Part shown: positions 11,713 through 58,802 of the stretch, in pieces | Position numbering within the stretch: the stretch's first letter is position 1 | Layout: every line of letters starts with the position of its first letter | Assembly: GCA_028753945.1 (NCBI GenBank) | Contig: JAPNXP010000012.1 | Coordinates: 3,906,001 to 3,970,000, forward strand | Direction of reading: 5' to 3' | DNA: 64,000 nucleotides | From: Hexactinellida sp. DTS-2022 | Lineage: Eukaryota > Porifera > Hexactinellida | The notes under the pieces: generated by a model | Seen by the model: the letters and a program-made list of their open reading frames with translations, nothing else | Databases searched by the model: none | What the model was told of the DNA's origin: nothing | Position numbers and translations under genes: made by a program

Positions 11713-12770
11713 GTGCGAGCCTTTAGCTAATTGTATGATTTCATTCGACAGCAAATCTATAATTAAAATTCAGAATTTATCGGCGGCGTACGAATACTTT
11801 TGGTAGGGCACTGTACATAGTTCGGATAATAGAGGTTGCACACTTTTGAAAAGAAAAGCTCGAGAAAGTATGAGAGTAATTAGATTTTGAACGAGAGTAT
11901 TTGGTTTGAACCATAATAGGACAGTAAAGTAACGGTATCCACGAAGAATATGTTTCCTTGTCCTAGATGCGCCTTTGCAGCAGGCCCTGACTATGTATTT
12001 CAGCAGCGTCCCAGGATTGAAATCCTGAGCCGGTCGGGCCCCAAGCCTCAACCGCGCTAACCGGGGCCTGGCCCCGTCTGGCCCCTACCTGGCTACGCCA
12101 CTGTTGTACACCCATTAAATGTCATACTGTTGACAAAGAAATTACTTGAGGAGACACCTTACAATAAATATTCCTACAATTAGTTTTTAACTTAGTCACT
12201 TTAAATTTGTGCCACCTGTGCCACAAATGGAACATGGTAGGAATATGCAGGCCACTTTTGAAAAGTCGACGGCCCCAATTGCCCCAAACATTTAGCATAA
12301 CAAGCAATCAACCAAACTTGGAAAATTAATAAGTTAATAAGTCACATAAGATACTAATCACAAAATCGGCCACTTAGATATAAAAATTCGCTACTCACAG
12401 TACTCAGTATTAAAATTTGTGTAAATTGTATTGATCCTTAATTAATAATGAATTATAATAATAAAATACTATACTATAACGAAGGTTAGGTTAATTCGTA
12501 TAAATAAATAATAATTAAATACGTGTATGAATGAAAAGGAAGAGCTTGGATGATCTTAATTAACTGCTTAATAATAGCCTCTAATTACCACATCAACGAT
12601 AAATAGCATATAGTGATTTCAATATCTAATAATAGACACCCATGAGAATTATATTAAAATGGAAACGCGATTGGCCTAGGCGAAACGCGTTTGGCGTCTT
12701 TTCTCAGGCGAAACGCGTTTGGCCTAGGCGAAACGCGTTTCGCCTGGAAACGCATTTGGCCTGCAACATA

Positions 12771-13977
12771 TACAATGGATTAAATAAAATATAATAATAT
12801 AAGGAATTTGTTGACTTTACTCAAATCACCGTGGATAACATTGCTAAAATAAATAGCTAATAATATAATTTATTATCAATACATAATGAATGAATGGCAT
12901 TATACTCAAGATGGTTTATGATAGAAACTATCTTCAAATTAATCTACCGTTCCTTGTGACTAGAATCAATTAACAAATGGTTCTTGTCACCTTGAGGCGT
13001 TGATGACTTGGCGAAAAAAAATCCAAAATTGCAGCCTGTGCCGACAGCATGTTCCTTTGGAGGCACAATCAATAAACAAACAACAAAATATAGTGCCACC
13101 AATGGAACATGCGTCGGCACAGGCTGCAATTTTGTATTTTGTATTTTTTATTTTTTCTCCGTAGCAGGTGCCCTGGCCACACCTGTATACATTGAGGGCT
13201 GAAACTTGGCATGTAGTTGCGGAGTGAGCGTCTAATTTGCACCTGGGGTTACGATTTTTTATCAAATGATTTCAACACCTATTTAAACTAATTATGGCTC
13301 ATAACATGAAATAATTAATATTGAGCATGATAAAATTTACATGTACGGATAGAGAATTAAATTCTACACCTTTTCACAGTGCACGAATTTTTAAATTGGG
13401 TTTCGTTAGTGCCACAATAGAGTTGCAAGTTTCCTTTGTTTACTAACACTTCAGTTCCTTTGAAAGTGTTAAATCTAATTCTATTGTTTCAACTTGTAAT
13501 AAATTTATTGATTTAACTTGTTAAATATTTCACTATTGTTTAACTTGCGATAATTACATTGATTTAACTTGTGAATTCGAGCTGGCTTCTATTTAATTGT
13601 AGTATTACTATACAATGGATTAAATTAAATTATATTATATAAGGAATTTATTGACTTTACTCAACTCACCGTGGATAACATTGTTAAAATAAATAACTAA
13701 TAGTATAATTTATTATCAATACATAATGAAAGAATGGCAATAAACTCAAGATGGTTTATGATAAAAACAAACTTCAAATTTATCTACCGTTCCTTGTGAC
13801 TCGGACCAATTAACAAATGGTTCTTGACACCTTGGGCGTTGATGACTTGGCGAAAAAAAATCCAAAATTGCAGCCTGTGCCGACAGCATGTTCCTTTGGA
13901 GGCACTATCAATAAACCACCACCAAAATATAGTGCCACCAAAGGAACATGCGTCGGCACAGGCTGCAATTTTGGATT
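12771..13977 (-). repeat. Two reverse-oriented copies of the array unit
   Basis: On the minus strand this is one full and one partial type-II unit of the family that forms the array from 39973. Hairpins lie at about 13021-13137 and 13860-13975. Bodies carry the TTATCCACGGTG, ATCCATTGTATAG and CCCCAGGTGCAAATTAGACG blocks. The outermost hairpin joins directly to the flank module at 13978-14058. The other end stops at element B, at the TA of the ATCCATTGTATAG block, so B or a rearrangement truncated it. Confidence 0.8.
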
Positions 13978-31867: not shown

Positions 31868-32190
31868 TCATTTTTTTGATAAAAGCACCAAAATCTGTAC
31901 ACATATACTTTGATGTAGTGCGAACATTTTTGGATATTGAGGCCATTGAAAGAGTGTCTATATCGGCCATGACAGCTCGCCAAAGTTACACGTCCGATAG
32001 TGTTCGCCGGACTTGTTTCCCATAAAAACTTGTTCAAATTAATAAGTAATATCGTTTTTTACTGTGCCGACTATACTATACTATAGTGGCCCAGTATTGT
32101 TATTGTTGAATTCGGGTTCGGATTAAAGTACATGTTCAGAGTAAAGTACATGTGTACTAATTTTGGTGCTTTTATCATAAAAATGAACAA
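31868..32190. mobile_element. Inverted-repeat MITE with a degenerate minisatellite core
   Basis: GATAAAAGCACCAAAATCTG near 31880 pairs with the reverse complement near 32155-32190. The loop around 32063-32098 contains GTGCCGACTATACTATACT, followed by ATAGTGGCCCAGTATTG, a single reverse-strand copy of the array minisatellite. Confidence 0.65.
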
Positions 32191-33300: not shown

Positions 33301-34199
33301 GGTGTCACTGTCCAAGCACCGCTTCATTTCCTTGAGGAAGTGGGTGTCCGGACACCCAGGACACCCCCTGTACAAGTGGTATCTCAGATCGCTTATCGTA
33401 TGAGCTTCAATTCCAATCGATAGAAGCAATTCCAAACTAGACAATACAACTTTTACTTGGCACAATCTAACTATTGGGACTTGGGAGATGGTTTGTAGCA
33501 GATAATAGTAATTATCGGGTCTCAGTATTCTTAAGAGGGTCTCAGTACTCTCCAGTTCGTTTCTAAAGTATGTATCGGGTAGTTTAGAGCTGGGGCATGA
33601 TGACTTGGTGGATAGACGATCTAGACAGTGAGACTATTATCATTAGCTACTAGGGGACTCAATTAACTATGATACGTACCATGAAAAGTATAAGTGACTT
33701 CACAAAGAATAAATATATAAATATTTATTACAAAATAGAGCTAACTTCGTTAACATTTTTTTTGGGGCAAACAAGTTAGAAAATATAATACAAATTATTG
33801 TTACCTCTCAATTAGAAGGGTTATCTTATAATTTCGGGTACTTTTGGAAATATTTCTTCAGTATTCTACATAAATTGTTATTGCAATTACAATCACCAAT
33901 AACTTTAATATATTTGGATTTAGCAGTACGTATTTATGATCCCAAAACCTGGGAAATGTCGCATTGTTCCACACGGCACAAAGTAAATTGAGTAAAAATC
34001 TCAAAAATAAATTATCCTCGTGCATCGAAAATGTCTAACATAAAAAGTTGGATCATTTATATCGAATATAATATACTACATACATCCTGATTTTATTTGA
34101 CAACCCTTGTGCCTTGTCTATTAACAAGTAGTCCCAGTCAAGGGATTGGTAAGTTAATCCTATTCTGCACTGATTCTCTTAGTTAATTTCTCGATATTT
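33301..34199. other. Spacer and promoter region upstream of the coiled-coil/NHL gene
   Basis: No exon is recognised. The sequence around 33301-33390 (GTGGGTGTCCGGACACCC) is a small palindrome. The ~500 bp before the start codon at 34200 are AT-rich with no obvious repeat, so they may hold the promoter. Confidence 0.35.
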
Positions 34200-35882: not shown

Positions 35883-36640
35883 TACCGACTATAGTATAGT
35901 GTCCCAGTTCTGATCTTGCTGCCTTGTTATATTATATTTAGTCCGCATCCTCTCCACAGAACAGAGTTTTATTCACTAAGAGCCCAAATTTACAGAATAG
36001 GTGTCTCATGGGTTACAGATGCACCTGGGGTCACGATTTTGAAAATTCACATTTCCAAGGTGACAAAACTTGTAACCAATTATCTCAATATCTCTCAATA
36101 ATTAAGTGTGCATTATATAGTGCCTAACGGAGGCTGTAATTTATTTGGTCGAGAGTTTATTCATGCAACCAATCAATTATTTTTACATCATTTTCTTTTG
36201 AGGCACTATTAATCAACCAACCATAGGCGCCAATTTTGGGGTTTTGGGGGGGGGGGCAGCCCCCCCCCCCCCCCCCCCCCCCCCAAATTGCTGATTGGCC
36301 CCCCATATTGCTTATTGGGGGGGTGCTGGGAGCAATACCCGGACCTGTCGGTCGATTTAATTTTTATATGAAAGTGATCCTTTTGATCGACCAAGGGATG
36401 ATAGAAGGTGAGAATCACGTTTGTTACTCAATATATCCTGATTTTGTTTCTAAAGAAACAAATCTGGAAATATTTAGTAAAGATCCCAGTGCCCCCCCAG
36501 ACCCCCCAAGTGGCTCCCCCCATCTTTGATTATATTTTCCAAAACTTGACGCCTATGCAACCAACGACCAAAATATAGTGCATGTGCATCCAAAGGAAAA
36601 TTCTTCGGCACAGGCTGCAATTTAGGATTTTTTTGTTTGA
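35883..36640 (-). repeat. Lone decayed copy of the array unit, with a minisatellite monomer
   Basis: On the minus strand it reads hairpin (36640 back to about 36195, split by a MITE), then part of a type-I body, then the conserved ends (ACCCCAGGTGCATCTGTAACC-like, 35995-36035, and AACTCTGTTCTGTGGAGAGG, 35945-35970), then one minisatellite monomer (35883-35926). The module order is the same as in the large array, so the monomer is part of the unit itself. Confidence 0.75.
36222..36557. mobile_element. 336-bp hAT-like MITE inside the lone array copy
   Basis: Ends CATAGGCGCC and GACGCCTATG, flanked by CAACCAAC at 36214-36221 and 36558-36565. Long G and C runs lie just inside the left end. It splits the hairpin of the lone array unit. 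Confidence 0.85.
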
Positions 36641-39303: not shown

Positions 39304-39972
39304 AAATTAATTAAAGATTAATTATTACAAATAGAAATTAGGAATACGTGCTAGTATTTACGTTACTATCTTGAATAATAAATTGACATCATCATCAACT
39401 TGTAAAATATTCCAACTTCCAAGTGTTTCAATTGCACTTGTATGAAACACATATTCACTTACAAACCAATCAATAACAGTCATTATCCTAGCAGATAGTA
39501 GGCTTATGTAATATGTTCTATGTATTGAGTATACTATAGAGTAATTACAATATGGAGAAGATGGCTGATTTATGTAAATAATCGTTAATAAAACGTAGAA
39601 TTGATTAGCGACCTAATAATTTTAATTGATATATAGAAAGAACATCCTTAGGAGAATACAACCTCTATATTTTCAATAACTAATTCGAATTATTAAAGAG
39701 TCACTGGACCAGAATACAAATTTCGATATAACTGACGAACAAAAGCGAAATTGAGAAATCAGGCTTCGAGGTGATCATCTCCAGGAAATTCTATATCTCC
39801 TGTCCAAATTTGAAATCTCTATCACCAATGGTCTAGTCAGGCCATCGCGTACGGCCGGCCAGCCGGCCGGCCGGAAGTCCGACAGAGGTAAATTCAATAG
39901 TGTGCACTTATAGTATAAAACTATAGTAGGACCCTACTATAACGTTTTTTACTAGAAGAAGCACACTAAAAA
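39304..39972. other. AT-rich stretch before the array
   Basis: No exon is recognised. Near 39856-39880 there is a GGCCGGCCAGCCGGCCGGCC palindrome, and near 39905-39945 a CTATAGTAGGACCCTACTATA palindrome. Confidence 0.4.
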
Positions 39973-41201
39973 TCCAAAATTGCAGCCTGTGCCGACGCAT
40001 GTTCCTTTGGTGGCACTATATTTTGGTGCAAATGGTGGTTGGTTTATTGATAGTGCCTCCATAGGAACATGCTGTCGGCTCAGCTGCAATTTTGGATTTT
40101 TTTTTCTCCATGTCATCATCACTATGAAGGTGTTAAATTATTTCAGAAAGGTGTTTCAAAAGGCAACGACCCTTAGTGAGTTGGTAGTTTCGTTTTAGCT
40201 CACTTCATTTCAAAGATATTCAAATTTCAGTAGAATATAATAAGTGATGAGTCAACATTTTTTATATGAGTGTTTGGTGATCACACAACACCAACCAACT
40301 CATTCGAAATATATTATTCACAAAATTGTAAAAACACATTTTTTGACGATGTCATCATCACCTCAAGGTGTCAAAACCCATTTGTAGAGGTGTTACGTTG
40401 CATAAGGATCAATTGATAAATTTGAAATTTGTTCCTATCTTCTATAATATAGATTAACGATATTTAATTAATTAGTTTAAATAATTATAAATTAATTAGT
40501 TTAAATAATTATTAATATTATTTATAATATAACACCAATTTCAATGTTAATTTACAATAATTAATTTAAATTATTTTGCCATAAATAATAAATTAATTCA
40601 TTTGGCTATCAAATTTCAATTCCGCACACTCGATAACCCCTAATAAACAAATTGGGAGCATCTCTATAAGTCATATACTGACTTAATTAATTATAATTAA
40701 TTACGTCAGAATATTAACAGTGCAAGAGTATTCTTGCAGAAGGAAATATAATCACATAATCTGTCGTTGTTATGGAATGTAGTATCTTAGATTTCAATTG
40801 GAAAATAGAAGCCTACTCGATCTCACAAGTTGAATCAATATAATAGTAACGAGTTGAAACAATAGAATTAGATTTAACACTTTCAATTGAACTGAAGTGT
40901 TAGTAAACAAAGGAAACTTGCAAGTCAATTGTGGCACAAACGAAGCCCAATTTGAAAATTCGTGCACTGTGAAAAGGTGTGGAATTTAATTCTCTATCGA
41001 TTGCAAATAAATTTAATTTTCGGGTACTATTTATTGTTGCTGTTTCAAAATTAAACAGGTGCAAAAATGTGTCCAAAAAAATGTAATAAAAAATCGTGAC
41101 CCCAGGTGCACATCTGTAACCCATGAGACACCTATCCTGAAAATTTGGGCTCTTAGTTAATTATACTCTGTTCTGGGGAGAGGCTACGGACTAATAAAAA
41201 A
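39973..41201 (+). repeat. Array unit 1 (type I, 1,229 bp)
   Basis: Hairpin 39973-40097, body I, no minisatellite. Confidence 0.85.
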
Positions 41202-42409
41202 TCCAAAATTGCAGCCTGTGCCGACGCATGTTCCTTTGGTGGCACTATATTTTGGTGTGGTTTATTGATAGTGCCTCCTATGGAACATGCTGTCGGCACA
41301 GGCTGCAATTTTGGATTTTTTTTCCGCCATGTCATCATCACTACAAAGGTGTTAAATTATTTCAGTAAGGTGTTTCAAAAGGCAACGACCCTTAGTGAGT
41401 TGTAAATTTCTTTTATGCTCACTTCATTTCAAAGATATTCAAGTTTCAGTAGAATATAATAGCTGATGACTCAGCATTTTTTATGTGAGCTCTGGGTCAT
41501 CACCCAAAACGAACCGACCCATTTGAATTATATAATTCACAAAATTGTGAAAACACATTTTTTTACGATGTCATCATCACCTCAAGGTGTCAAGACCCAC
41601 TTGTAGAGGTGTTACGTGGCATAAGGATCAATTGATAAATTGGAAGTTTGTTTCTATCTTATTTGATTTCTGAGATTTATGATATTTAATTAATTAGTAT
41701 AAATATTAATTAATATTATTTATAATTTAACACCAATTTCAATGTCAACTTACAATTAATAAATTAAATTATTTTGTCATGAATAATAAATTAATTATTT
41801 TGTTATCAAATTTCAATTAAGCACTCTCGATAACCCCTAATTAAACAAATTATAAGCATCTATATAAGTAATATACTGACTGAATTAATTATAATTAATT
41901 ACGTCAGTATATTAACAGTCCAATAATATTCTCGCAGAAGTAAATATAATCACATAATCTGTCGTTGTTGTGAAATATATAATCTTTTTTTTCAATTGGA
42001 AAATAGAAGCCTACTCGATCTCACAAGTTGAATCAATATAATAATAACGAGTTGAAACAATAGAATTAGATTTAACACTTTCAATTGAACTGAAGTGTTA
42101 GTAAACAAAGAAATTTCAACCCCAATTTATGGCATGAATCAAACCTATTAGTAAAAACATTCATCTCCCATCAGATGGAGAATTTTATAGTGAATCCAAT
42201 GGTGAAAAGAAAATTGGGGGTTTAGTATAACATTTTTTGAGTTATGGACCAGACGAAATTTGAAAGGTGTCAAAAAAAAGTCCAAAATTTGTTAATAAAA
42301 AATCGTGACCCCAGGTGCAAATCTGTAACCCATGAGACACCTGTCCTGCAAATTTGGGTTGTTAGTTAATTAAACTCTGTTCTGTGGATGAGCTACGGAA
42401 GAATAAAAA
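41202..42409 (+). repeat. Array unit 2 (type I with a type-II insert, 1,208 bp)
   Basis: Mostly body I, but about 42110-42280 (AATTTCAACCCC through GTTATGGACCAGACGAAATT) is body-II sequence, after which the type-I end resumes. Confidence 0.85.
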
Positions 42410-43611
42410 TCCAAAATTGCAGCTGTGCCGACGCATGTTCCTTTGGTGGCACTATATTTTGGTGGTGGCTTATTGATAGTGCCTCCAATGGAACATGCTG
42501 TCGGCACAGCTGCAATTTTGGATTTTTTTTTCCGCCATGTCATCATCACTATGAAGGTGTTAAATTATTTCAAAAAGGTGTTTCTGTAGGCAACGACCCT
42601 TAGAAAGTTGTAAATTTCGTTTGTGCTCACTTCATTTCAAAGATATTCAAGTTTCAGTAGAATATAGTAGCTGATGACTCAGCATTATTTATGTGAGCTC
42701 TGGGTCATCACCCAAAACGAACCGACCCATTTGAATTATATAATTCACAAAATTGTGAAAACACATTTTTTTTACGATGTCATCATCACCTCAAGGTGTC
42801 AAGACCCACTTTTATAGGTGTTACGTGGCATAAGGATCAATTGATAAATTGGAAGTTTGTTTCTATCTTATTTGATTTCTGAGATTTATGATATTTAATT
42901 AATTAGTATAAATAATAATTAATATTATTTATTATTTAACACCAATTTCAATGTCAACTTACAATTATTAAATTAAATTATTTTGTCATGAATAATTAAT
43001 TAATTATTTTGTTATCAAATTTCAATTAAGCACTCTCGATAACCCCTAATAAACAAATTATAAGCATCTATATAAGTAATATACTGACTGAATTAATTAT
43101 AATTAATTACGTCAGTATATTAAGAGTGCAATAATATTCTCGCAGAAGTAAATATAATCACATAATCTGTCGTTGTTGTGAAATATATAATCTTTTTTTC
43201 CAATTGGAAAATAGAAGCCTACTCGATCTCACAAGTTGAATCAATATTATAATAACGAGTTGAAACAATAGAATTAGATTTAACACTTTCAATTGAACTG
43301 AAGTGTTAGTAAACAAAGGAATTTTCCAACTCAATTGTGGCACAAACGAAACCCAATTTAAAAATTCGTGCACTGTGACAAGGTGTAGAATTTAATTCTC
43401 TATCGAATGCATATAAATAGAATATTCGCGCACTATTTATTGTTCTTTTTCTAATATTAAACAGGTGCAAAAATGTGTCCAAAAAAATGTGATAATTAAA
43501 CGTGACCCCAGGTGCACATCTGTAACCCATGAGACACATATCCTGAAAATTTGGGCTCTTAGTTAGTAAAACTCTGTTCAGTAGAGAGGCTACGGACTAA
43601 TAAAAAAAAAA
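42410..43611 (+). repeat. Array unit 3 (type I, 1,202 bp)
   Basis: The hairpin arms have lost two C bases on both sides (GCAGCTGTGCCGAC), a symmetric change that keeps the stem paired. Confidence 0.85.
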
Positions 43612-45190
43612 TCCAAAATTGCAGCCTGTGCCGACGCATGTTCCTTTGGTGGCACTATATTTTGTTGGTTGTTTATTTATAGTGCCTCCAAAAGAACATG
43701 CTGTCGGCGCAGGCTGCAATTTTGGATTTTTTTTTCGCCATGTCATCATCACTATGAAGGTGTTAAATTATTTCAAAAAGGTGTTACAGAAGGCATCGAC
43801 CCTTAGAGTGGTGGAAGTTTCCATTTAGTTCATATAATTTTAGAGATATTCAAGTTTGAGTAGAATATAATAGCTGATGACTCAGCATTTTTTATGTGTG
43901 TGTTGGGTCATCACCCAACATCAACTAACCCATTTTAAATATCGAATTAACAAAATTGTAAAAATACATTTTTTTTACGATGTCATAATCACCTCAAGGT
44001 GTCAAGACCCACTTGTATAGGTGGTACCTGGCATAAGGACCAATTGATAAATTGAAAGTTTGTTTCTATCTTGTATCATCTCTGAGATTAATGAAATTTA
44101 TCTAATTAGTATAAATATTTAATTTATTTATTTATTATTTAACACCATTATTATATACAGCAAAATAAATTAAGTTCAATTATTTGCAATTATTATTTAT
44201 TTAAATTGAATTTCACTATAATATTTGAATTCCACGCACTCGATAACCCCAATAATCTATTTGGAACCATCTCTATACGGTAAACACAGAGCGAATTAAT
44301 TAGAATTAAATATGTCAGTACATTAATTGTGCAAGAATATTCTCGCTGAAATAAATATAATCACTTAATCTGTCGTTGTTGTGGAATGTAAAATCTTAAC
44401 GGTTCTATCATAAACCATCTTTAGTTTAATGCCATTCATTCATTATGTATTGATAATAAATTATATTATTAGTTATATATTTTAGCAATGTTATCCACGG
44501 TGTGTTGAGTAAAGTCAACAAATTCCTTATATAAATTAATTTAATTTAATCCATTGTATAGTAATGCTACAATTAAATAGAAGCCAGCTGCATTCATTGT
44601 GTATTGCTATTAAATTATATTATTCGTTATTTATTTTAGCAATGTTATCCACGGTTGGTTGAGTTGAGTCAACAAATTCCTTATATTATATTATTTAATT
44701 TAATCCATTGTATAGTAATACTACAATTAAATAGAAGCCAGCTGTAATTTATAAGATGAATCAATATAATTATTACAAGTTGAATCACTAGAGTAGGATT
44801 TAACAAGTTAAATCAATATAATAATCGCAAGTTGAAACAATGGAATTAGATTTAACAGTTTTATTGAAACTGAAGTGTGAGTAAACAAAGAAATTTCAAC
44901 CCCCATTAATGGCAGGAATAAAACCTTTTTTGAAGGTTTTCTTCTCCCATCAGACGCAGAATTTTATGGGGAATCCAAATATGAAATAAAATTTTCGGGT
45001 TTAGTAAAACATATTTTGAGTTATGGACCAGACAAAATCTGAAAGGTGTTAAAGATGTGTCAAAAATTTCTTAATAAAAAATCGTAACCCCAGGTGCAAA
45101 TTAGACGGTCCTACCGCACCTACATGCCAAGTTTCAGCCCATCAACTATAGAGCTCTGGCCAGGGTACCGTCTACGGAGAAAAAAAAAAA
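43612..45190 (+). repeat. Array unit 4 (hybrid I to II, 1,579 bp)
   Basis: Begins with body I and ends with body II. The block TTATCCACGGT to GAAGCCAGCTG is present twice in tandem (about 44490-44590 and 44645-44742), which explains the extra length. Confidence 0.85.
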
Positions 45191-46060
45191 TCCAAAATTG
45201 CAGCCTGTGCCGACGCATGTTCCTTTGGTGGCACTATATTTTGTTGGTGGTTTATTGATAGTGCCTCCAAAGGAACATGCTGTCGGCGCAGGCTGCAATT
45301 TTGGATTTTTTTCCCAAAGTCATCAACGCCCAAGGTGTGAAGAACCATTTTTTAATTGGTCCGTGTCACAAGGAAGGGTAGATAAATTTGAAGTTTGTTT
45401 CTATCATAAACCATCTTGAGTTTAATGCCATTCTTTCATTATGTATTGATAATATATTATATTATTAGTTATTTATTTTAGCAATGTTATCCACGGTTGG
45501 TTGAGTTGAGTCAACAAATTCCTAATATATATTATTTAATTTAACCCATTGTATAGTAATACTAGAATTAAATAGAAGCCAGCTGGAATTTATAAGTTAA
45601 ATCAATATAATTATCGCAAGTTGAATCACTAGAGTAGGATTTAACAAGTTAAATCAATATAATTATTACAAGTTGAAACAATAGAATTAGATTCAATATA
45701 ATTATTACAAGTTGAAACAATAGAATTAGATCTAACAGTTTTACTGAATCTCAAGTGTGAGGAAACACAGGAGATTGGCACCCCAATTATGGCACAAAGC
45801 TATGCTAAATTGAACATTCGTGAATTGCCAAAAGGTGTAGAAATTAATTCTATATCCGTATATGTAAATTTTATCAAGCTCAATATTAATTATTTCATGT
45901 TATGAGCCATAATTAGTTTAAATAGGTGTTAAAATTATTTGATCAAAAATCGTAACCCCAGGTGCAAATTAGACGGTCACTCTGCACCTGCATGCCAAGT
46001 TTCAGAACTCAATGTATACAGGTGTGGCCAGGGCACCTGCTACGGAGAAATAATAAAAAT
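45191..46060 (+). repeat. Array unit 5 (type II, 870 bp)
   Basis: Body II, with a short duplication of TTACAAGTTGAAACAATAGA near 45660-45730. Confidence 0.85.
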
Positions 46061-47332
46061 AAAAAATTGCAGCCTGTGCCGACGCATGATCCTTTGGTGG
46101 CACTATATTTTGTTGTTGGTTTATTGATAGTGCCTCCAAAGGAACATGCTGTCGGCACAGGCTGCAATTTTGGATTTTTTTTTCGCCATGTCATCATCAC
46201 TATGAAGGTGTTAAATTATTTCAGAAAGGTGTTTCAGAAGGCAACGACCCTTTAGAGTGGTGGAAGTTTCCATTCAGCTCACTTCATTAAAGAGATATTA
46301 AAGTTTCAGTAGAATATAATCTGTAATGACTCAGAATTTTTTAAGTGGGTGTTGGGTCATCAACCAACATTAACTAACCCATTTTAAATATCGAATTAAC
46401 AAAATTGTAAAAACACATTTTTTTAACGATGTCATCATCACCTCAAGGTGTCAAGACCCACTTGTATAGGTGGCACGTGTCATAAGGACCAATTGATATA
46501 TTGAAAGTTTGTTTCTATCTTCTATGATCTCTGAGATTTATGATATTTAATTAATTAGTATAAATAATTATTAATATTATTTATAATATGACACCAATTT
46601 CAATGTCAACATACAATTATTAAGTTCAATTATTTTGTCATAAATAATTAATTAATTAATTTATCTATCAAATTTCAATTCCGCACACTCGATAACCTCT
46701 AATATACAAATTGGAAGCTTCTATATAAGTTAAATACAAACTGAATTATTTATAATTAATTACGTCAGTATATTAACAGTGCAATTATATTCTCGCAGAA
46801 GTAAATATAATCACATAATATGTCGTTGTTATGAAATATATAATCTTAATTTTCAATTGCAAAATAGAAGCCAGCTTGAATTCACAAGTTAAATCAATAT
46901 AATTATAGCAAGTTGAATCACTAGAGTAGGATTTAACAAGTTAAATCAATAAAATTATTACAAGTTGAAACAATGGAATTAGATTTAACACTTTACTGAA
47001 ATTGAAGTGTGAGTAAACAAAGAAATTTCAACCCCCATTTATGGCAGAAATTGACCCCTTTATTGGAAAATTTATTCTCCCATCAGACGCAGAATTTTAT
47101 GGTGAATCCAAATATGAAATAAAATTTGGGGGTTTAGTAAAACAATTTTTGAGTTATGGACCAGACAAAATTTGAAAGGTGTTAAAGATGTGTCAAAAAT
47201 TTCTTAATCAAAAATCGTGACCCCAGGTGCAAATTAGACGGTCCCTCCGCAACTACATGCCAAGTTTCAGCCCATCAACTATAAAGCTCTGGCCAGGGCA
47301 CCGTCTACGGAGAAAAAATAATAATAAAAAAA
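46061..47332 (+). repeat. Array unit 6 (hybrid I to II, 1,272 bp)
   Basis: The hairpin has a changed left edge (AAAAAATTGCAGCC). Body I runs to about 46870, then body II. Confidence 0.85.
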
Positions 47333-48498
47333 TCCAAAATTGCACCCTGTGCCGACGCATGTTCCTTTGGTGGCACTATATTTTGTTGGTTGTTTATTGA
47401 TAGTGCCTCCAAAGGAACATGCTGTCGGCGCAGGCTGCAATTTTGGATTTTTTTTCGCCAAGTCATCAACGCCCAAGGTGTGAAGAAGCATTTGTTAATT
47501 GGTACGAGTCACAAGGAACGGTAGATAAATTTGAAGTTTGTTTCTTTCTTAAACCATCTTGAGTTTGATGCCATTCATTCATTATGTATTGATAATAAAT
47601 TATATTATTAGTTATTTATATTAGCATTGTTATCCACGGTTGAGTTGAATTAAGTCAACAAATTCCTTATATTATATTATTTTATTTAATACATTGTATG
47701 GTAAATTAAATAGAAGCCAGCTGTAATTTATAAGTTAAATCAATTTAATTATCGCAAGTTGAATCAATAGAGTAAGATTTAACAAGTTAAATCAATATAA
47801 TTATTACAAGTTGAAACAATGGAATTAGATTTAACAGTTATACTGAAACTGAAGTGTGAGTAAACAAAGAAATTTCAACCCCATTTATGGCAGAAATTAA
47901 ACATATTTTTGAAAATATTCCTCTCCCATCAGACGCAGAATTTTATGGTGAATCCAAATGTGAAATAAAATTTGGGGGTTTAGTAAAACATATTTTGAGT
48001 TATTGACCAGACAAATTTTGAAAGGTGTTAAAGATGTGTCAAAAATTCGTTAATCAAAAATCGTAACCCCAGGTGCAAATTAGACGGTCCATACGCACCT
48101 ACATGCCAAGTTTCAGCCCATCAACTATAAAGCTCTGGCCAGGGCACCGTCTACGGAGAAAAAAAAAAAAAATAATAATAAAGGCAGTGATTCCAATACT
48201 GGGCCACTATACTATAGTATAGTCGGCACAGTAAAAATAAAAATAAAGGCAGTGATTCCAATACTGGGCCACTATACTATAGTATAGTCGGCACAGTAAA
48301 AATAAATAAATAAAGGCAGTGAGATTAGAACTGGGCCACTATACTATAGTATAGTCGGCACAGTAATAACTAACCAAAGCACTAAGATTAGAACTGGGCC
48401 ACTATACTATAGTATAGTCGGCACAGTAATAATAACTAACCAAAGCACTAAGATTAGAACTGGGCCACTATACTATAGTATAGTCGGCACAGTAAAAA
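47333..48498 (+). repeat. Array unit 7 (type II, with 5 minisatellite monomers)
   Basis: The hairpin's left arm has GCACCCTGTGCC in place of GCAGCC. Minisatellite block 48181-48498. Confidence 0.85.
48181..48498 (+). repeat. Minisatellite block, 5 monomers
   Basis: Monomers of ~55-70 bp with core GGGCCACTATACTATAGTAT then AGTCGGCACAGTAATAA. Two leaders alternate: GATTCCAATACT and GATTAGAACT. Confidence 0.9.
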
Positions 48499-49347
48499 TC
48501 CAAAATTGCAGCTGTGCCGACGCATGTTCCTTTGGTGGCACTATATCTTGTTGTTGGTTTATTGAAAGTGCCTCCAAAGGAACATGCTGTCAGCACATCT
48601 GCAATTTTGGATTTTTTTCGCGATGTCATCAACGCCTCAAGGTGTCATGATCCATTTGTTAATTGATCCGAGCCACAAGGAACGGTTGATAAATTTGAAG
48701 TTTGTTTCTATCACAAACCATCTTGAGTTTAATGTCATTCATTCATTTTGTATTGATAATAAATTATATTATTAGTTATTTATTTTAGCAATGTTATCCA
48801 CGGTGATTTGAGTAAAGTCAATAAATTCCTTATATTATATTATTTTATTTTATCCATTGTATAGTAATACTACAATTAAATAGAAGCCAGCTGGAATTTG
48901 TAAGTTAAATCAATATAATTATCGCAAGTTGAATCACTAGAGTAGGATTTAACAAGTTAAATCAATATAATTATTACAAGTTGAAACAATAGAATTAGAT
49001 TTAACACTTTACTGAAATTGAAGTGTGAGTAAACAAAGAAATTTCAACCCCCATTAATGGCAGAAATTGACCCCCTTATTGAAAAATTTCTTCTCCCATC
49101 AGACGCAGAATTTTATGGCGAATCCAAATGTCAAATAAAATTTGGGGGTTTAGTAAAACAATTTTTGAGTTATGGACCAGACAAAATTTGAAAGGTGTTA
49201 AAGATGTGTCAAAAATTTCTTAATCAAAAATCGTAACCCCAGGTGCAAATTAGACTGTCCCATCGCACCTACATCCCAAGTTTATGCCCATCAACTATAA
49301 AGCTCTGGCCAGGGCACCGTCTGTGGAGAAAAAAAATATAATAAAAA
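48499..49347 (+). repeat. Array unit 8 (type II, 849 bp)
   Basis: Short hairpin variant (GCAGCTGTGCC), body II, no minisatellite at its 3' end. Confidence 0.85.
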
Positions 49348-50186
49348 TCCAAAATTGCAGCTGTGCCGACGCATGTTCCTTTGGTGGCACTATATTTTTG
49401 TGTTGTTTATTGATAGTGCCTCCAAAGGAACATGCTGTCGGCGCAGGCTGCAATTTTGGATTTTTTTTCGCCAAGTCATCAACGCCCAAGGTGTGAAGAA
49501 CCATTTGTTAATTGGTCGGAGTCACAAAGAACGATTGTTGAATTTGAAGTTTGTTTCTATCATAAACCATCTAGAGTTTAATGCCATTCATTCATTTTGT
49601 ATTAATAATAAAATATATTGTTAGTAATATATTTTAGCAATGTTATCCACGGTTGGTTGAGTTGAGTCAACAAATTCCTTATATTATATTATATTATTTA
49701 ATCCATTGTATAGTAATACTAGAATTAAATAGAAGCCAGCTGGAATTTACAAGTTAAATCAATATAATTATCACAAGTTGAATCACTAGAGTAGGATTTA
49801 ACAAATAAATCAATATAATTATCGCAAGTTGAAACAATGGAAATTGATTTAACAGTTTTATTGAAATTGAAGTGTTGAGTAAACAAAGGAATTTCAACCC
49901 CCATTTATGGCAGAAATTAGACCAATTTTAACAAATTTTCTTCTCCCATCAGACGCAGAATTTTAAGATGAATCTAAATATGAAATAAAATTTTCGGGTT
50001 TATTAAAACATATTTTGAGTTATGGACCAGACAAATTTTGAAAGGTGTTAAAAATGTGTCCAAAATTTCTTAATAAAAAATCGTAACCCCAGGTGCAAAT
50101 TAGACGTCGACTCCGAACCTACATTCCAAGTTTCAGCCCTCTATGTATATAGGTGATGGCCAGGGCACCTGCTACGGAGAAATAAA

Positions 50187-50217
<31 letters not shown>
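49348..50217 (+). repeat. Array unit 9 (type II, 870 bp)
   Basis: Body II. Ends in an (ATA)n tract just before the next hairpin. Confidence 0.85.
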
Positions 50218-51475
50218 TCCAAAATTGCAGCCTGTGCCGACGCATGTTCCTTTGGTGGCACTATATTTTGATTGTGGTTTTTTGATAGTGCCTCCAAAGG
50301 AACATGCTATCGGCACTGGCTGCAATTTTGGATTTTTTTTCGCATTGTCATCATCACTATGAAGGCGTTAAATTATTTCAAAAAGGTGTTACAGAAGGCA
50401 TCGACCCTTAGAGTGGTGGAAGTTTCCATTTAGTTCACTTCATTTTAGATATATTCAAGTATGAGTAGAATATAACAGCTGATGACTCAGCATTTTTTGT
50501 GTGAGTGTTGGGTCACCACCCAACATCAACTAACCCATTTTAAATATCGAATTAACAAAATTGTAAAAACACATTTTTTTAGCGATGTCATCATCACCTC
50601 AAGGTTTCAAGGCCCACTTGTATAGGTGGCACGTGCCATAAGGACCAATTGATAAATTGGAAGTTTGTCTCTATCTTGTATCATCTCTGAGATTTATGAT
50701 ATTTAATTAATTAGTATAAATAATTATTAATAATTTAACACCAATTTCAATGTCAACTTATATTTATTAAGTTTAATTATTTTGTCATAAATAATTAATT
50801 AATTAATTTGGCTATCAAATTTCAATTCCGCACACTCGATAACCCCTAATAAACAAATTGGAAGCATCGATATAAGTCATATACTGACTTAATTAATTAT
50901 TATTAATTACGTCAGTATATTAACAGTGCTAGAGTATTCTTGCAGAAGGAAATATAATCACACAATCTGTCGTTGTTATGGAATGTAGAATCTTAGTTTT
51001 CAATTGGAAAATAGAAGCCTACTCGATCTCACAAGTTGAATCAATATAATAATATCGAGTTGAAACAATAGAATTAGATTTAACACTTTCAATTGAACTG
51101 AAGTGTTAGTAAACAAAGGAAACTTGCAACTAAATTGTGGCACAAACTAAGTACAATTTGAAAATTCGTGCACTGTGAAAAGGTGTAGAATTTAATTTTC
51201 TATCGAATGCATATAGATTTAATTTTCGGGTACTATTTATTGTTCCTGTTTCAATATTAAACAGGTGCAAAAATGTGTCCAAAAAAATGTAATAAAATAT
51301 CGTGACCCCAGGTGCACATCTGTAACCCATGAGACACATATCCTGAAAATTTGGGCTCTTAGTTAATAAAACTCTGTTCTGTGGAGAGGATACGGAAGGA
51401 AAATATCAACTAACCAAAGCACTAAGATTAGAACTGGGCCACTATACTATAGTATAGTCGGCACAGTAATAAAAA
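50218..51475 (+). repeat. Array unit 10 (type I, with 1 minisatellite monomer)
   Basis: Body I; a single monomer at 51408-51475. Confidence 0.85.
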
Positions 51476-52686
51476 TCCAAAATTGCAGCCTGTGCCGACG
51501 CATGCTCCTTTGGTGGCACTATATTTTGTTGGTAGCTTATTGATAGTGCCTCCAAAGAAACATGCTGTCGGCGCAAGCTGCAATTTTGGATTTTTTTTTT
51601 CGCCAATTCATCATCACTATAAAGGTGTTAAATTATTTCAGAAAGGTGTTTCAGAATGCTACGACCCTGAGAGTGGTGGAAGTTTCCATTTAGTTCACTT
51701 CATTTTAGAGATATTCAAGTTTGAGTAGAATATAATAGCTGATGACTCAGCATATTTTATGTGAGTGTTGGGTCATCACCCAACATCAACTAACCTATTT
51801 TAAATATCAAATTAGCAAAATTGTAAAAACACATTTTTTTAACGATGTCATCATCACCTCAAGGTGTCAAGACCCACTTGTATAGGTGGCACGTGCCATA
51901 AGGACCAATTGATAATTTGAAAGTTTGTTTCTATCTTCTATGATCTCTGAGATTTATGATATTTAATTAATTAGTATAAATAATTATTAATAATATTTAT
52001 AATTTAACACCAATTTCAATGTCAACTTATATTTATTAAGTTTAATTATTTTGTCATAAATAATTAATTAATTAATTTGGCTATCAAATTTCAATTCCGC
52101 ACACTCGATAACCCCTAATAAACAAATTGGGAGCATCTATATAAGTCATATACTGACTTAATTAATTATTATTAATTACGTCAGTATATTAACAGTGTAA
52201 GAGTATTCTTCCAGAAGGAAATATAATCACATAATCTGTCGTTGTTATGGAATGTAGAATCTTAGTTTTCAATTGGAAAATAGAAGCCTACTCGATCTCA
52301 CAAGTTGAATCAATATAATAATTACGAGTTGAAACAATAGAATTAGATTTAACACTTTCAATTGAACTGAAGTGTTAGTAAACAAAGGAAACTTGCAACT
52401 CAATTGTGGCACAAACTAAGTACAATTTGAAAATTCGTGCACTGTGAAAAGGTGTAGAATTATATTCTCTATCGAATGCATATAAATTTAATTTTCGGGT
52501 ACTATTTATTGTTCCTGTTTCAATATTAAACAGGTGCAAAAATGTGTCCAAAAAAATGTAATAAAAAATCGTGACCCCAGGTGCACATCTGTAACCCATG
52601 AGACACTTGTCCTGAAAATTTCAGTTCTTAGTTAATTAAACTCTGTTCTGTGGAGAGGATACGGAAGGATAATAATAATAAAAAAA
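51476..52686 (+). repeat. Array unit 11 (type I, 1,211 bp)
   Basis: Body I, no minisatellite. Confidence 0.85.
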
Positions 52687-54005
52687 TCCAAAATTGCAGC
52701 CTGTGCCGACGCATGTTCCTTTGGTGGCACTATATTTTGTTGGTGGTTTATTGATAGTGCCTCCAATGGAACATGCTGAGGCACAGGCTGCAATTTTGGA
52801 TTTTTTTCGCCAAGTCATCATCACTAAAGGTGTTAAATTATTTCAGAAAGGTGTTTCAGAAGGCTACGACCCTTAGAGTGGTGGAAGTTTCCATTTAGCT
52901 CACTTCATTTGAGAGATATTCAAGTTTCAGTAGAATATAATATGTGCTGAGTCAGCATTTTTTAGGTGCGTGTTGGGTATTCACCCAACTCCATCCAACC
53001 AACCCATGCGAATTTTTTAATTCACAAAATTGTAAAATACATTTTTTTGACGATGTCATAATCACCTCAAGGTGTCAAGACCCACTTGTATAAGTGGTAC
53101 CTGGCATAAGGACCAATTGATAAATTGAAAGTTTGTTTCTATCTTGTATTATCTCTGAGATTAATGAAATTTATCTAATTAGTACAAATATTTAATTAAT
53201 TTATTAATTATTTAACACCATTATTATATACAGCAAAAAAATTAAGTTCAATTATTTGCAATAATTATTAATCTAAATTGAATTTCACTATCATATTTGA
53301 ATTCAGCGCACTCGATAACCCCACTAATCTATTTGGAACCATCTCTATAAGTTAAACACAGAGCGAATTAATTAGAATTAAATTTGTCATGTATCCATTG
53401 TGCAAGAATATTCTAAGCAGAAATAAATATAATCACATAATCTGTCGTTGTTTTGGAATGTAGAATCTTAGTTTTCAATTATAAAATAGAAGCCTACTCG
53501 ATCTCACAAGTTGAATCACTAGAATTATCGCAAGGTGAAACAATAGAATTAGATTTAACACTTTCAATTGAACTGAAGTGTTAGTAAACAAACGAAACTT
53601 GCAACTCAATTGTGGCACAAATGAAACCCAATTTACAAATTCGTGCACTGTGAAAAGGTGTAGAATTTAATTCTCTATCGAATGCATATAAATTAAATAT
53701 TCGCGCACTATTTATTATTCTTTTTCAAATATTAAACAGGTGCAAAAATGTGTCTAAAAAAATGTAATAAAAAATCGTGACCCCAGGTGCACATCTGTAA
53801 CCCATGAGACACCTATCCTGAAAATTTGGGCTCTTAGTTAATTAAACTCTGTTCTGGGGAGAGGCTACGGACTAATAACTAACCAAGGCAGTAAGATTAG
53901 AACTGGGCCACTATACTATAGTATAGTCGGCACAGTAATAACTAACCAAGGCAGTAAGATTAGAACTGGGCCACTATACTGTAGTATAGTCGGCACAGTA
54001 AAAAT
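52687..54005 (+). repeat. Array unit 12 (type I, with 2 minisatellite monomers)
   Basis: Hairpin right arm shortened (CATGCTGAGGCACAGG). Minisatellite block 53876-54005. Confidence 0.85.
53876..54005 (+). repeat. Minisatellite block, 2 monomers
   Basis: Two monomers with the GATTAGAACT leader. One has a single change in the palindrome (TACTGTAGTA). Confidence 0.9.
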
Positions 54006-55389
54006 CCAAAATTGCAGCCTGTGCCGACGCATGTTCCTTTGGTGGCACTATATTTTGTTGGTTGTTTATTTATAGTGCCTCCAAAAGAACATGCTGTCGG
54101 CGCAGGCTGCAATTTTGGATTTTTTTTTCGCCATGTCATCATCACTATGAAGGTGTTAAATTATTTCAAAAAGGTGTTACAGAAGGCATCGACCCTTAGA
54201 GTGGTGGAAGTTTCCATTTAGTTCATATAATTTTAGAGATATTCAAGTTTGAGTAGAATATAATAGCTAATGACTCAGCATATTTTATGTGAGTGTTGGG
54301 TCATCACCCAACATCAACTAACCTATTTTAAATATCAAATTAGCAAAATTGTAAAAACACATTTTTTTAACGATGTCATCATCACCTCAAGGTGTCAAGA
54401 CCCACTTGTATAGGTGGCACGTGCCATAAGGACCAATTGATAATTTGAAAGTTTGTTTCTATCTTCTATGATCTCTGAGATTTATGATATTTAATTAATT
54501 AGTATAAATAATTATTAATAATATTTATAATTTAACACCAATTTCAATGTCAACTTATATTTATTAAGTTTAATTATTTTGTCATAAATAATTAATTAAT
54601 TAATTTGGCTATCAAATTTCAATTCCGCACACTCGATAACCCCTAATAAACAAATTGGGAGCATCTATATAAGTCATATACTGACTTAATTAATTATTAT
54701 TAATTACGTCAGTATATTAACAGTGCAAGAGTATTCTTGCAGAAGGAAATATAATCACATAATCTGTCGTTGTTATGGAATGTAGAATCTTAGTTTTCAA
54801 TTGGAAAATAGAAGCCTACTCGATCTCACAAGTTGAATCAATATAATAATAACGAGTTGAAACAATAGAATTAGATTTAACACTTTCAATTGAACTGAAG
54901 TGTTAGTAAACAAAGGAAACTTGCAACTCAATTGTGGCACAAACTAAGTACAATTTGAAAATTCGTGCACTGTGAAAAGGTGTAGAATTTAATTCTCTAT
55001 CGAATGCATATAAATAGAATATTCGCGCACTATTTATTGTTCTTTTTCTAATATTAAACAGGTGCAAAAATGTGTCCAAAAAAATGTGATAATAAAACGT
55101 GACCCCAGGTGCACATCTGTAACCCATGAGACACATATCCTGAAAATTTGGGCTCTTAGTTAGTAAAACTCTGTTCAGTAGAGAGGCTACGGACTAATAA
55201 CTAACCAAAGCACTAAGATTAGAACTGGGCCACTATACTATAGTATAGTCGGCACAGTAATAACTAACCAAAGCACTAAGATTAGAACTGGGCCACTATA
55301 CTATAGTATAGTCGGCACAGTAAAAATAAAGGCAGTAAGATTAGAACTGGGCCACTATACTATAGTATAGTCGGCACAGTAAAAAAAAA
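54006..55389 (+). repeat. Array unit 13 (type I, with 3 minisatellite monomers)
   Basis: Its first ~250 bp are almost identical to the start of unit 4, and the rest to units 10-11. Minisatellite block 55197-55389. Confidence 0.85.
55197..55389 (+). repeat. Minisatellite block, 3 monomers
   Basis: Three monomers directly before the hairpin of unit 14. Confidence 0.9.
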
Positions 55390-56486
55390 TCCAAAATTGC
55401 ACCCTGTGCCGACGCATGTTCCTTTGGTGGCACTATATTTTATTGGTTGGTTATTGATAGTGCCTCCAAAGGAGCATGCTGTCAGCACAGGGTGCAATTT
55501 TGGATTTTTTTTCGCCCAGTTATCAACGCCTCTAGGCGTCAAGAACCATTTGTTAACTGTTCCGAGTCACAAGGAACGGGGGATAAATTTTAAGTTTTGT
55601 TTCTATCTTAAACCATCTTGAGTTTAATGCCATTAATCCTTTATGTATTGATAATAAATTATATTATTAGTTAATTATTTTAGCAATGTTATCCACGGTT
55701 GAGTTGAATAAAGTCAACAAATTCCTTATATTATAATATTTTATTTAATCCATTGTATAGTAATACTACAATAAATAGAAGCCAGCTGGAATTTATAAGT
55801 TAAATCAATATAATTATCGCAAGTTGAATCACTAGAGTAGGATTTAACAAGTTTAATCAATATAATTATTACAAGTTGAAACAATGGAATTAAATTTCAC
55901 AGTTTTACTGAAATTGAAGTGTGAGTAAACAGAGAAATTTCAACCCCCATTTATGGCAGAAATTGACCCCTTTATTGAAATATTTTTTCTCCCATCAGAC
56001 ACAGAATTTTATGGCGAATCCAAATGTGAAATAAAATTTGGGGGTTTAGTAAAACAATTTTCAAGTTATAGACCAGACAAATTTTGAAAGGTGTTAAAAA
56101 TGTGTCCAAAATTTGTTAATCAAAAATCGTAACCCCAGGTGCAAATTAGACGGTCCCATCGCACCTACATGCCAAGTTTAAGCCCATCAACAATTAAGCT
56201 CTGGCCAGGGCACCGTCTACGGAGAAAAAATAATAAAAATAATAATAATATTAAAGGCAGTAAGATTAGAACTGGGCCACTATACTATAGTATAGTCGGC
56301 ACAGTAATAAAGGCAGTAAGATTAGAACTGGGCCACTATACTATAGTATAGTCGGCACAGTAAAAATAAAGGCAGTAAGATTAGAACTGGGCCACTATAC
56401 TATAGTATAGTCGGCACAGTAATAAAGGCAGTGATTCCAATACTGGGCCACTATACTATAGTATAGTCGGCACAGTAAAAATAAAA
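55390..56486 (+). repeat. Array unit 14 (type II, with 4 minisatellite monomers)
   Basis: Both hairpin arms carry a matched G-to-C change (GCACCCTGTGCC and GCACAGGGTGC), a compensatory pair. Minisatellite block 56253-56486. Confidence 0.85.
56253..56486 (+). repeat. Minisatellite block, 4 monomers
   Basis: Four monomers directly before the hairpin of unit 15. The last has the GATTCCAATACT leader. Confidence 0.9.
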
Positions 56487-57345
56487 TCCAAAATTGCACC
56501 CTGTGCCGACGCATGTTCCTTTGGTGGCACTATATTTTATTGGTTGGTTATTGATAGTGCCTCCAAAGGAGCATGCTGTCAGCACAGGGTGCAATTTTGG
56601 ATTTTTTTTCGCCCAGTCATCAACGCCCAAGGTGTGAAGAACCATTTGTTAATTGGTCGGAGTTACAAGGAACGGTAGATAAATTTGAAGTTAGTTTCTA
56701 TCATAAACCATCAAGAGTTTAATGCCATTCATTCATTATGTATTGATAATAAAATATATTATCAGGAATTTATTTTAGCAATGTTATCCACGGTTGGTTG
56801 AGTTGAGTCAACAAATTCCTTATATTATTATAATTTATTTAATCCATTGTATAGTAATACTAGAATTAAATAGAAGCCAGCTGGAATTCACAAGTTAAAT
56901 CAATATAATTGTAGCAAGTTGAAACAATAGTGTAAGATTTAACAACTTAAATCAATATAAATATTACAAGTTGAAACAATGGAATTAGATTTCACAGTTT
57001 TACTGAAATTGAAGTGTGAGTAAACAAAGAAATTTCAACCCCCATTTATGGCAGAAATAAAACTCTTTATTAAAAGTTTTCTTCTCCCATCAGACGCAAA
57101 ATTTTATGGTGAATCCAAATATGAAATAAAATTTGGGGGTTTAGTAAAACAATTTTTGAGTTATGGACCAGACAAAATTTGAAAGGTGTTAAAGATGTGT
57201 CAAAAATTTCTTAATCAAAAATCGTGACCCCAGGTGCAAATTAGACGGTCCCTCCGCAACTACATGCCAAGTTTCAGCCCATCAACTATAAAGCTCTGGC
57301 CAGGGCACCGTCTACGGAGAAAAAATAATAATAAAAATAAAAATA
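56487..57345 (+). repeat. Array unit 15 (type II, last unit)
   Basis: Same compensated hairpin as unit 14. It is followed by the long minisatellite block instead of another hairpin. Confidence 0.85.
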
Positions 57346-58318
57346 AAGGCAGTGATTCCAATACTGGGCCACTATACTATAGTATAGTCGGCACAGTAAA
57401 AATAATAATAATAATATTAAAGGCAGTAAGATTAGAACTGGGCCACTATACTATAGTATAGTCGGCACAGTAAAAATAATAATAATAATAATATTAAAGG
57501 CAGTAAGATTAGAACTGGGCCACTATACTATAGTATAGTCGGCACAGTAATAATAATAACTAACCAAGGCACTGAGATTAGAACTGGGCCACTATACTAT
57601 AGTATAGTCGGCACAGTAATAATAACTAACCAAGGCACTGAGATTAGAACTGGGCCACTATACTATAGTATAGTCGGCACAGTAATAATAAAGGCAGTGA
57701 TTCCAATACTGGGCCACTATACTATAGTATAGTCGGCACAGTAATAATAATAATATTAAAGGCAGTAAGATTAGAACTGGGCCACTATACTATAGTATAG
57801 TCGGCACAGTAATAATAATCGGTAACCAAAGCACTAAGATTAGAACTGGGCCACTATACTATAGTATAGTCGGCACAGTAATAATAATAAAGGCAGTGAT
57901 TCCAATACTGGGCCACTATACTAGAGTATAGTCGGCACAGTAATAATAACTAACCAAAGCACTAAGATTAGAACTGGGCCACTATACTATAGTATAGTCG
58001 GCACAGTAATAACCAAGGCAGTAAGATTAGAACTGGGCCACTATACTATAGTATAGTCGGCACAGTAATAACTAACCAAAGCACTAAGATTAGAACTGGG
58101 CCACTATACTATAGTATAGTCGGCACAGTAATAATAACCAAGGCACTAAGACCAATACTGGGCCACTATAGTATAGTCGGCACAGTAATAATCGGTAACC
58201 AAAGCACTAAGATTAGAACTGGGCCACTATACTATAGTATAGTCGGCACAGTAAAAATAATTAATGCAGTGATTCCAATACTGGGCCACTATACTATAGT
58301 ATAGTCGGCACAGTAATA
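57346..58318 (+). repeat. Minisatellite block, about 15 monomers, at the array end
   Basis: Fifteen monomers with (TAA)n and AACTAACCAAAG linkers. One (near 58155) has lost part of the palindrome, one (near 57910) has CTAGAG in it. Leaders GATTCCAATACT and GATTAGAACT alternate irregularly. The array stops here and unrelated sequence follows. Confidence 0.9.
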
Positions 58319-58802
58319 AATCACTAATGGATGTAAACTGATGGAAGCCAAACTGGATTAATCAAGTATGCAATCTCGGGAAAATGTAGGTGAAGATTAA
58401 ATCTCCAAAACACAATGTGAGCAATGAGGAATCTGTTGTAGGTACGTTTTTGATAATACCTGGCGCAGATTAAAAGTGAAATTGTTAAATTTTGAAGAGA
58501 CATACAATACATTATATAGTACGTATAACTTGACAAATTTGTGTCGACTGAATCAAAATTGTAATAGTAAAATCCAAATTAGTTCCTACGTGAGGCTATA
58601 ATCCCATAAATCGTAACGTGTGCTTCATTTTATGCTGCCTTATCATCTAAAATTGTGGGCGATTCGGACAAAAATTAATGAGTTATTCCCAAAAACACTC
58701 AAACCTCCCATATCCGGGCACTTTTAACGAAGGGTGCCCGTAACTGGGAATTTCCCCTTATCTCAGAAAGTGTCTTGTCCATATTTTTATCATTAAACTT
58801 GT
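58319..58802. other. Spacer between the array and the foldback half-copy
   Basis: About 480 bp, AT-rich, with no exon or repeat that I recognise. A TATCCGGGCAC/GTGCCCG pair near 58711-58730 could be the end of a MITE. Confidence 0.4.

Follow-up and report, generated by a model that had tools for sequence, protein, structure and literature searches.

The closest described systems to the tandem array studied here, which lies in a 64-kb stretch of hexactinellid sponge DNA (the window, C4:3906001-3970000), are the non-autonomous Helentrons (HINEs). In the accessible sections of PMC4067079, HINEs are characterized by palindromic subterminal inverted repeats, a 3' palindrome, and T-rich insertion sites with a variable number of Ts and no target modification. 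Similar to the HINEs of Metaseiulus and the DINE-1 elements of Drosophila described there, the units of the array are non-coding, carry palindromic subterminal inverted repeats and a 3' palindrome, occupy T-rich targets with a variable number of Ts, and outnumber their autonomous partner. The 3' palindromes of those elements are 5–10 bp long, whereas the units here end in a hairpin of ~118 nt that contains the inverted repeat; also unlike them, the 5' palindrome is repeated up to 15 times and the units form long arrays. A previous sequence-only reading of the window had not recognised the family. It belongs to a kind already known, the non-autonomous Helentron, of which the organisation and its proposed cause are an unusual variant.

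Other rolling-circle elements resemble the array in part. Helitron2 of Fusarium (FoHeli1/2), as far as the available portions of PMC5148889 describe it, likewise has asymmetric inverted repeats, hairpins at both termini, and a 3' ATTTT, but lacks the endonuclease domain that the partner here possesses. Helitron-linked satellites are treated in the accessible parts of PMC12628747 and PMC8268682. In the Pacific oyster, dispersed arrays of satellite-like repeats are also tied to parts of Helentrons; those are short arrays inside elements, whereas here the repeating unit is a whole element, with its 5' end forming the minisatellite (PMC8268682 and PMC12628747; see also PMC7492417). The centromeric Helitron arrays of plants (Xiong et al. 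2016, as summarised in the accessible text of PMC12628747) are head-to-tail rolling-circle elements as well, but frequently combine numerous 5' ends with a single 3' end, while each unit here keeps its 3' hairpin and most junctions are without the 5' palindrome. The titles and abstract openings searched, with subscription papers and repeat databases outside the search, contained no account of orphaned 5' ends as a minisatellite.

Analysis of the window and of the genome (112.4 Mb in 18 contigs) indicated, with very little doubt, that the units are HINEs, apparently mobilised in trans by full-length Helentrons belonging to one family of this genome. The explanation as a whole, which joins this Helentron identity to growth of the array by stacking, is considered probable.

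Anatomy, dispersal and target sites of the units

Blast annotation of the array used a hairpin, a body I, a body II, and a monomer excised from the window as queries, and its features were recounted. It contains 15 hairpins between 39971 and 56603 and 30 palindromic monomers from 48198 to 58315, in blocks of 5, 1, 2, 3, 4 and 15. One monomer, at 58157, is degenerate, and a stricter pattern scan counts 29. The units are ~1.2 kb or ~0.85 kb in size with two kinds of body, and recombinant units are found at 43610 (43610-45188, 1,579 bp, body I joined to body II) and at 46063 (body I with a different tail). Apart from these two, the recount agrees with the earlier description of 15 units sharing one hairpin and two bodies of ~0.85 and ~1.2 kb. 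Within the array, monomers precede a hairpin at 5 of the 14 junctions between units and otherwise stand only at the end of the array. The features of the array are as follows.

39971..58315, minus strand: whole array, 15 head-to-tail HINE units, 5' end right and 3' end left
39971..40098, minus strand: outermost 3'-terminal hairpin, with CACACT and an A run at its left
Hairpin starts 1–5: 39971, 41200, 42408, 43610, 45189
Hairpin starts 6–10: 46063, 47331, 48497, 49346, 50216
Hairpin starts 11–15: 51474, 52685, 54003, 55388, 56485
40099..47234, minus strand: seven units with palindrome-free joins, mostly body I (the seventh unit begins at 47331), including the body-I/II chimera (43610-45188), a body-II unit (45189-46062), and body I with the other tail (46063-47330)
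48198..48494, minus strand: 5 palindromic 5'-end monomers, before the hairpin at 48497
51433..51468, minus strand: one palindromic monomer
53902..54000, minus strand: 2 palindromic monomers
55224..55381, minus strand: 3 palindromic monomers
56271..56477, minus strand: 4 palindromic monomers
57363..58315, minus strand: outer block of 15 palindromic monomers with mixed spacer types, the 5' edge of the array

Read on the sense (minus) strand, a unit consists of a T run, a 36-bp palindrome with the 5' inverted repeat, a spacer of ~20–30 bp, a T-rich run, the body, the 3' hairpin, and a T run. The 36-bp palindrome is the 5' end of the unit, while the ~118-nt hairpin with the second inverted repeat is its 3' end. 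The fixed module order proposed earlier had been read backwards, the hairpin being the 3' end and the minisatellite the 5' end. The monomer contains GTCGGCACAG, whose inverted complement, CTGTGCCGAC, forms an arm of the hairpin, so that the ends carry an asymmetric inverted repeat. At the outward hairpin boundaries, AATCCAAAATTG follows an A run in 24 of 30 rows (the 30 include two duplicates of window rows and six long gaps inside arrays), and CGGCACAGTA is present at 17 of 19 monomer-side boundaries. When folded as DNA, three hairpins (one of them on both strands) reached −50.8 to −58.1 kcal/mol, at z-scores of −15.6 to −17.9; for the monomer, the values were −8.8 kcal/mol and −4.5. The consensus fold of 130 distinct hairpins pairs 96.4% of cells, compared with 34–43% with shifted partners; double-change cells number 12 against a shuffle mean of 2.8 (maximum 8) and 5–20 in shifted controls, which makes covariation a weak support. 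Subterminal inverted repeats and a 3' palindrome, expected of Helentrons and HINEs, are present, with the 3' copy ~15 nt inside the hairpin end and so nearer the end than in the mite HINE, where it lies 38–60 bp back. Rfam at the gathering score gave no match in the window and no support for a described ribozyme-bearing element.

Genome-wide, a 33-nt hairpin pattern has 4,918 matches and the monomer pattern 6,767 at up to 3 mismatches, and the reversed-pattern control of each has 0. The hairpin count against its control, together with the fold z-scores, places the pattern beyond chance. Among the loci fetched around exact hairpin matches on contig C1, solo copies were found at L040, L041, L042, L045, and L055, each made of a single hairpin, a single body, which is interrupted or shortened in some copies, and one monomer or two. 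These numbers and the solo copies with fixed ends bear out the earlier suggestion of a multiplied mobile element, and other arrays built of the same modules exist as well.

Joining the flanks of the five solo copies revealed empty paralogous sites for three (L040, L041, and L042). The aligned empty sites show A6 in 2 of 2 for L040 and in 7 of 7 for L042; of the eight aligned for L041, A7 is found in five, A6 and A8 in one each, and a deletion at this place in the last. The occupied sites of L040, L042, and L041 carry 8+5, 6+3, and 7+5 As on their two sides, which places each insertion inside an A tract and amounts to a gain of about 7, 3, and 5 As, respectively. When the flanks of L040 and L042 are joined with AAA, frames of 97 and 99 codons are open across the junction. 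No target duplication apart from As was found at the three insertions with empty paralogues, contrary to the target duplications predicted from the window. Polarity is identical in all three, with the T tract on the transposon sense strand; the T-rich target, variable T number, and unmodified target typical of Helentrons and HINEs are found at each.

A Helentron partner in the same genome

A Helitron_like_N profile scan, which matched none of 14 control genomes, yielded a second set of frames at E about 1e-28, with at least 18 frames of 1,695–1,709 aa among the matches listed. The open frame of L086, from this set, encodes 1,697 aa with Pfam matches to Helitron_like_N (4.1e-28), PIF1 (2.3e-24), Exo_endo_phos (4.4e-8), and Exo_endo_phos_2 (2.9e-8). 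The protein contains the motif PHVH, the Walker A motif GGGAGVGKST, and a C-terminal DGNCFFR, which we take to resemble the motif of OTU proteases. Its matches in PDB include one to OTUD1 (E 0.0026) and one to a viral chain (4.7e-5), and a Pfam search at 0.01 found no OTU domain in it; the OTU protease is an accessory trait of Helentrons, not an essential one. A frame upstream in L086 matches DUF6570. The combination of Rep, helicase, and fused endonuclease is the Helentron architecture in the sections of PMC4067079 and PMC5148889 available.

In 4 of the 5 Helentron copies sampled, the family hairpin lies downstream of the gene and in the right sense, behind a nearly complete body II (L086), 60 bp of body II (L087), 112 bp of body I (L089), or 315 bp of body II (L090). 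L089–L091 were positioned by estimated distance, and no further family match was found past the hairpin of L089. Since hairpin matches occur about once per 23 kb genome-wide, four hairpins in five copies are unlikely to arise by chance. Upstream of the coding part, a body-type leader is present in 3 of 4 copies (body II in L088 and L094, body I in L093). With the hairpin after the gene and the leader before it, the transposon sense is the minus strand of the array, with the monomer 5' and the hairpin 3'. The genome therefore contains a partner with Rep, PIF1 helicase, fused endonuclease, and the ends of the short units, as in known pairs of Helentrons and HINEs. The short units likely derive from the Helentron by internal deletion, and this Helentron, with at least 18 open frames of 1,695–1,709 aa, may still be an active source of the enzyme.

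Other classes of element were compared. Canonical Helitrons (Helitron1) have a 5' TC, a 3' CTRR, a hairpin of 16–20 nt ~11 nt upstream, and insertion between A and T, whereas the sense-strand ends here are ACTGTGCCG and GGATTTT and insertion occurs within A/T runs. The ends of Helitron2 are similar, yet the partner here has an endonuclease domain. Elements with terminal inverted repeats (TIRs), including miniature ones (MITEs), and foldback elements do not agree with the asymmetric inverted repeats and the lack of duplication beyond As, nor does a classical satellite agree with the existence of solo copies and with neighbours no more alike than units elsewhere. A Helitron-type match, which the earlier reading had held to speak against its own proposal, exists in kind, through the architecture and ends of a Helentron rather than through a consensus sequence.

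The other Helitron_like_N set of the same scan (E below about 1e-50) is stronger and more typical, with frames up to 1,930 aa. A repeat of ~178 bp, with two copies in the window (31267-31633), has look-alikes upstream of a Helentron on C1 (L092, L095).

Growth of the array and origin of the minisatellite

The relations between neighbouring units were counted in the window and 93 loci, with two window duplicates dropped. Adjacent hairpin pairs have the same orientation in 109 cases and the opposite in 5. Between same-strand pairs 600–2,200 bp apart, monomers are present in 15 of 107 and absent in 92, and the main array has 5 internal junctions with monomers and 9 without. For 14 of the 15 array units, the best match is a unit elsewhere, above any unit in the array. 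Among 122 units with a neighbour, the best match lies at another locus for 121, at the same locus for one, and in the adjacent unit for none, a result that is partly selection, as 38 of the loci had been chosen for their similarity to two stretches of the window, and is fairer for the window units outside those stretches. Mean identity within the same length class is 0.736 for adjacent units and 0.721 for units of other loci.

Analysis of the MINISATELLITE monomers revealed three spacer types (a, b, and c) on the body side, of which c fits body I and a or b fits body II. All 31 classified monomers next to a body (the innermost ones) carry a fitting spacer, with 3 unclassified, while the spacer misfits in 17 of 62 outer monomers, with 5 unclassified; the 13 blocks in which no body end was recognised are omitted from these counts. 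The difference gives a Fisher p of 0.0005 with monomers treated as independent, although those of the same block are not. The 15-monomer outer block adjoins a body-II unit, yet holds several type-c monomers. On the simplest reading, outer monomers are the 5' ends of other, older elements.

We lean, by a modest measure, toward growth of the array by serial insertion of the same polarity into T runs that lie at the 5' end of a resident element or slightly inward of it. The Rep-helicase-endonuclease protein with its OTU-like part, to judge from its predicted domains, would nick at the T run; the nicked strand would be copied by rolling-circle replication that halts at the hairpin, and the copy would be placed into another T run. 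A newcomer entering the T run between the palindrome and body of a resident, always with the same polarity, would bring its hairpin against the resident body and leave the resident 5' palindrome stranded outside. Repeated rounds would produce a head-to-tail row of hairpins and bodies and steadily enlarge the block of palindromes on its outside, which is the minisatellite, while multi-unit stretches would also travel together and local duplication would add copies. Because the T run is polar, the orientation of units would be kept. Insertion between palindrome and body would explain together the direct junctions, the uniform orientation, the unrelated neighbours, and the mixed outer blocks. That the element is a self-stacking transposon, which targets polar T tracts and contains one where the 5' signal gives way to the body, so that each insertion there builds the array and ejects an older 5' signal, we rate at about an even chance. 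If so, neither rolling-circle read-through nor unequal crossing-over would be needed for a dispersed element to become a satellite accompanied by a minisatellite of orphaned start signals. A single cause would then underlie a complex satellite, its nested minisatellite, and a family of dispersed repeats, and insertion polarity together with an internal target would offer a concrete route from transposon to satellite. The start and stop signals of Helentrons are multiplied here in many combinations, open to comparison.

Besides the selection within the best-match counts, several observations weigh against this reading. No insertion in a palindrome–body T run with an empty counterpart was caught. 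Neighbouring monomers are alike in spacer in 39 of 64 classified cases compared with 36% in shuffles, or in 44 of 80 compared with 21.7 when unclassified spacers are counted as a type. The array has two monomers per unit, above the one expected from one insertion each, and the genome-wide ratio is 6,767 to 4,918. Collinear copies of the two-unit stretch 41200-43609 occur at 10 further places, distributed over 8 arrays, with 83–93% identity (16 of 3,819 candidates scored), and exact hairpin matches at C1:5016186-5024900 follow a ~3.93-kb period. With regard to target sites, the joined flanks of L045 and L055 returned no empty site in the search that found the other three, and no empty site of the whole array was found through its joined flanks: all other matches, 39 of 41 rows, start in the left flank, which is part of another dispersed repeat, a few extend up to 27 bases past the junction, and none covers the right flank. 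With regard to the partner, L091 has no hairpin in 0.9 kb downstream, and L092/L095 has no right-sense leader, only an antisense unit.

The runs of like spacers indicate that local duplication acts within monomer blocks, and the recurring two-unit stretches and the ~3.93-kb period indicate that blocks were also moved or duplicated. Considering the like-spacer runs, the two monomers per unit, and the multi-unit blocks together, local duplication and composite moves must act in addition to insertion. Six pairs of matches, one member in C1:2225684-2229055 and the other in C4:2987030-2990401, occupy exactly mirrored positions, suggesting a common ~3.4-kb block.

The sequence-only reading had proposed rolling-circle or unequal exchange; a rolling-circle transposon and some local duplication are involved, but neither plain mechanism fits the junction and best-match data well. 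The first could have formed concatemers of the same HINE, with replication passing the 3' hairpin around the circle and the multimer inserting once. The uniform orientation (109 to 5) and the collinear recurrence of two-unit stretches agree with this; tandem Helitron clusters are ascribed to bypassed termination in the available text of PMC4067079, and circles with joined ends are reported for a Fusarium Helitron in that of PMC5148889. However, a circle joins the 3' to the 5' end and should leave a palindrome at each junction, which 92 of 107 lack, and the units of a concatemer should be alike, while 0 of 122 best-match an adjacent unit; we regard this origin as doubtful. Amplification and shuffling of a satellite of transposon origin through unequal exchange and gene conversion appear more unlikely still. 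This process could account for the chimeric units (43610, 46063), the runs of like spacers, and the ~3.93-kb higher-order period (C1:5.016-5.025 Mb), the latter two having led us to raise its weight to this still low level, but exchange should homogenise neighbours, which at 0.736 hardly exceed other loci at 0.721, and the outer block of the array holds mixed types beside a unique flank. A foldback/TIR (MITE-like) element unrelated to Helentrons and amplified as a satellite is scarcely credible, since no target duplication but As exists at three sites and the hairpin of this family follows 4 of 5 sampled Helentrons, despite the long hairpin and palindromes and the known case of Tetris, a foldback element as satellite source (reference list of PMC12628747).

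Related copies and other features of the window

Outside the array, the window contains related copies on the plus strand.

12770..13977, plus strand: related copy in the opposite orientation, a full body-II-like unit and a 5'-truncated unit, with two hairpins
32060..32095, plus strand: lone palindromic monomer after a T run, without a matched body beside it
35888..36629, plus strand: decayed copy with a partial palindrome, a body-I fragment, and half a hairpin

The earlier claim that the 30 monomers lie only at unit junctions or the array end holds within the array; exceptions exist elsewhere, at 32060-32095 and in the leader of L094. The latter, a second stand-alone monomer (L094:1147-1182), lies within a body-type leader of which L088 holds the uninterrupted counterpart. 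Both stand-alone monomers are perhaps 5'-end-only insertions.

The hexamer AGGTGY occurs in 39971-58319 72 times on the plus strand and 10 times on the minus strand, compared with ~10 on both strands in shuffles; the strand-biased copies are perhaps candidate repeated binding sites. The left flank of the array (39800-39967) belongs to another dispersed repeat that ends in GCACACT, with 39 further matches listed, and L034 likewise has GCACACT directly before its hairpin. About 1.2 kb from the array, the frame 38467-38781 matches the Mif2/CENP-C cupin domain (4.3e-7), and near its right edge lies a Gypsy-like integrase frame (59567-60571, H2C2 and rve domains). Among the loci fetched, sequence outside arrays has 35.4% GC. 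The ends of C1 and C11 (L062, L063, L064) carry longer-period repeats, and no short telomeric repeat was seen in the parts of them covered. NHL-repeat frames run without interruption at 22140-23021 and 34158-34904 of the window, which suggests intron-poor genes.

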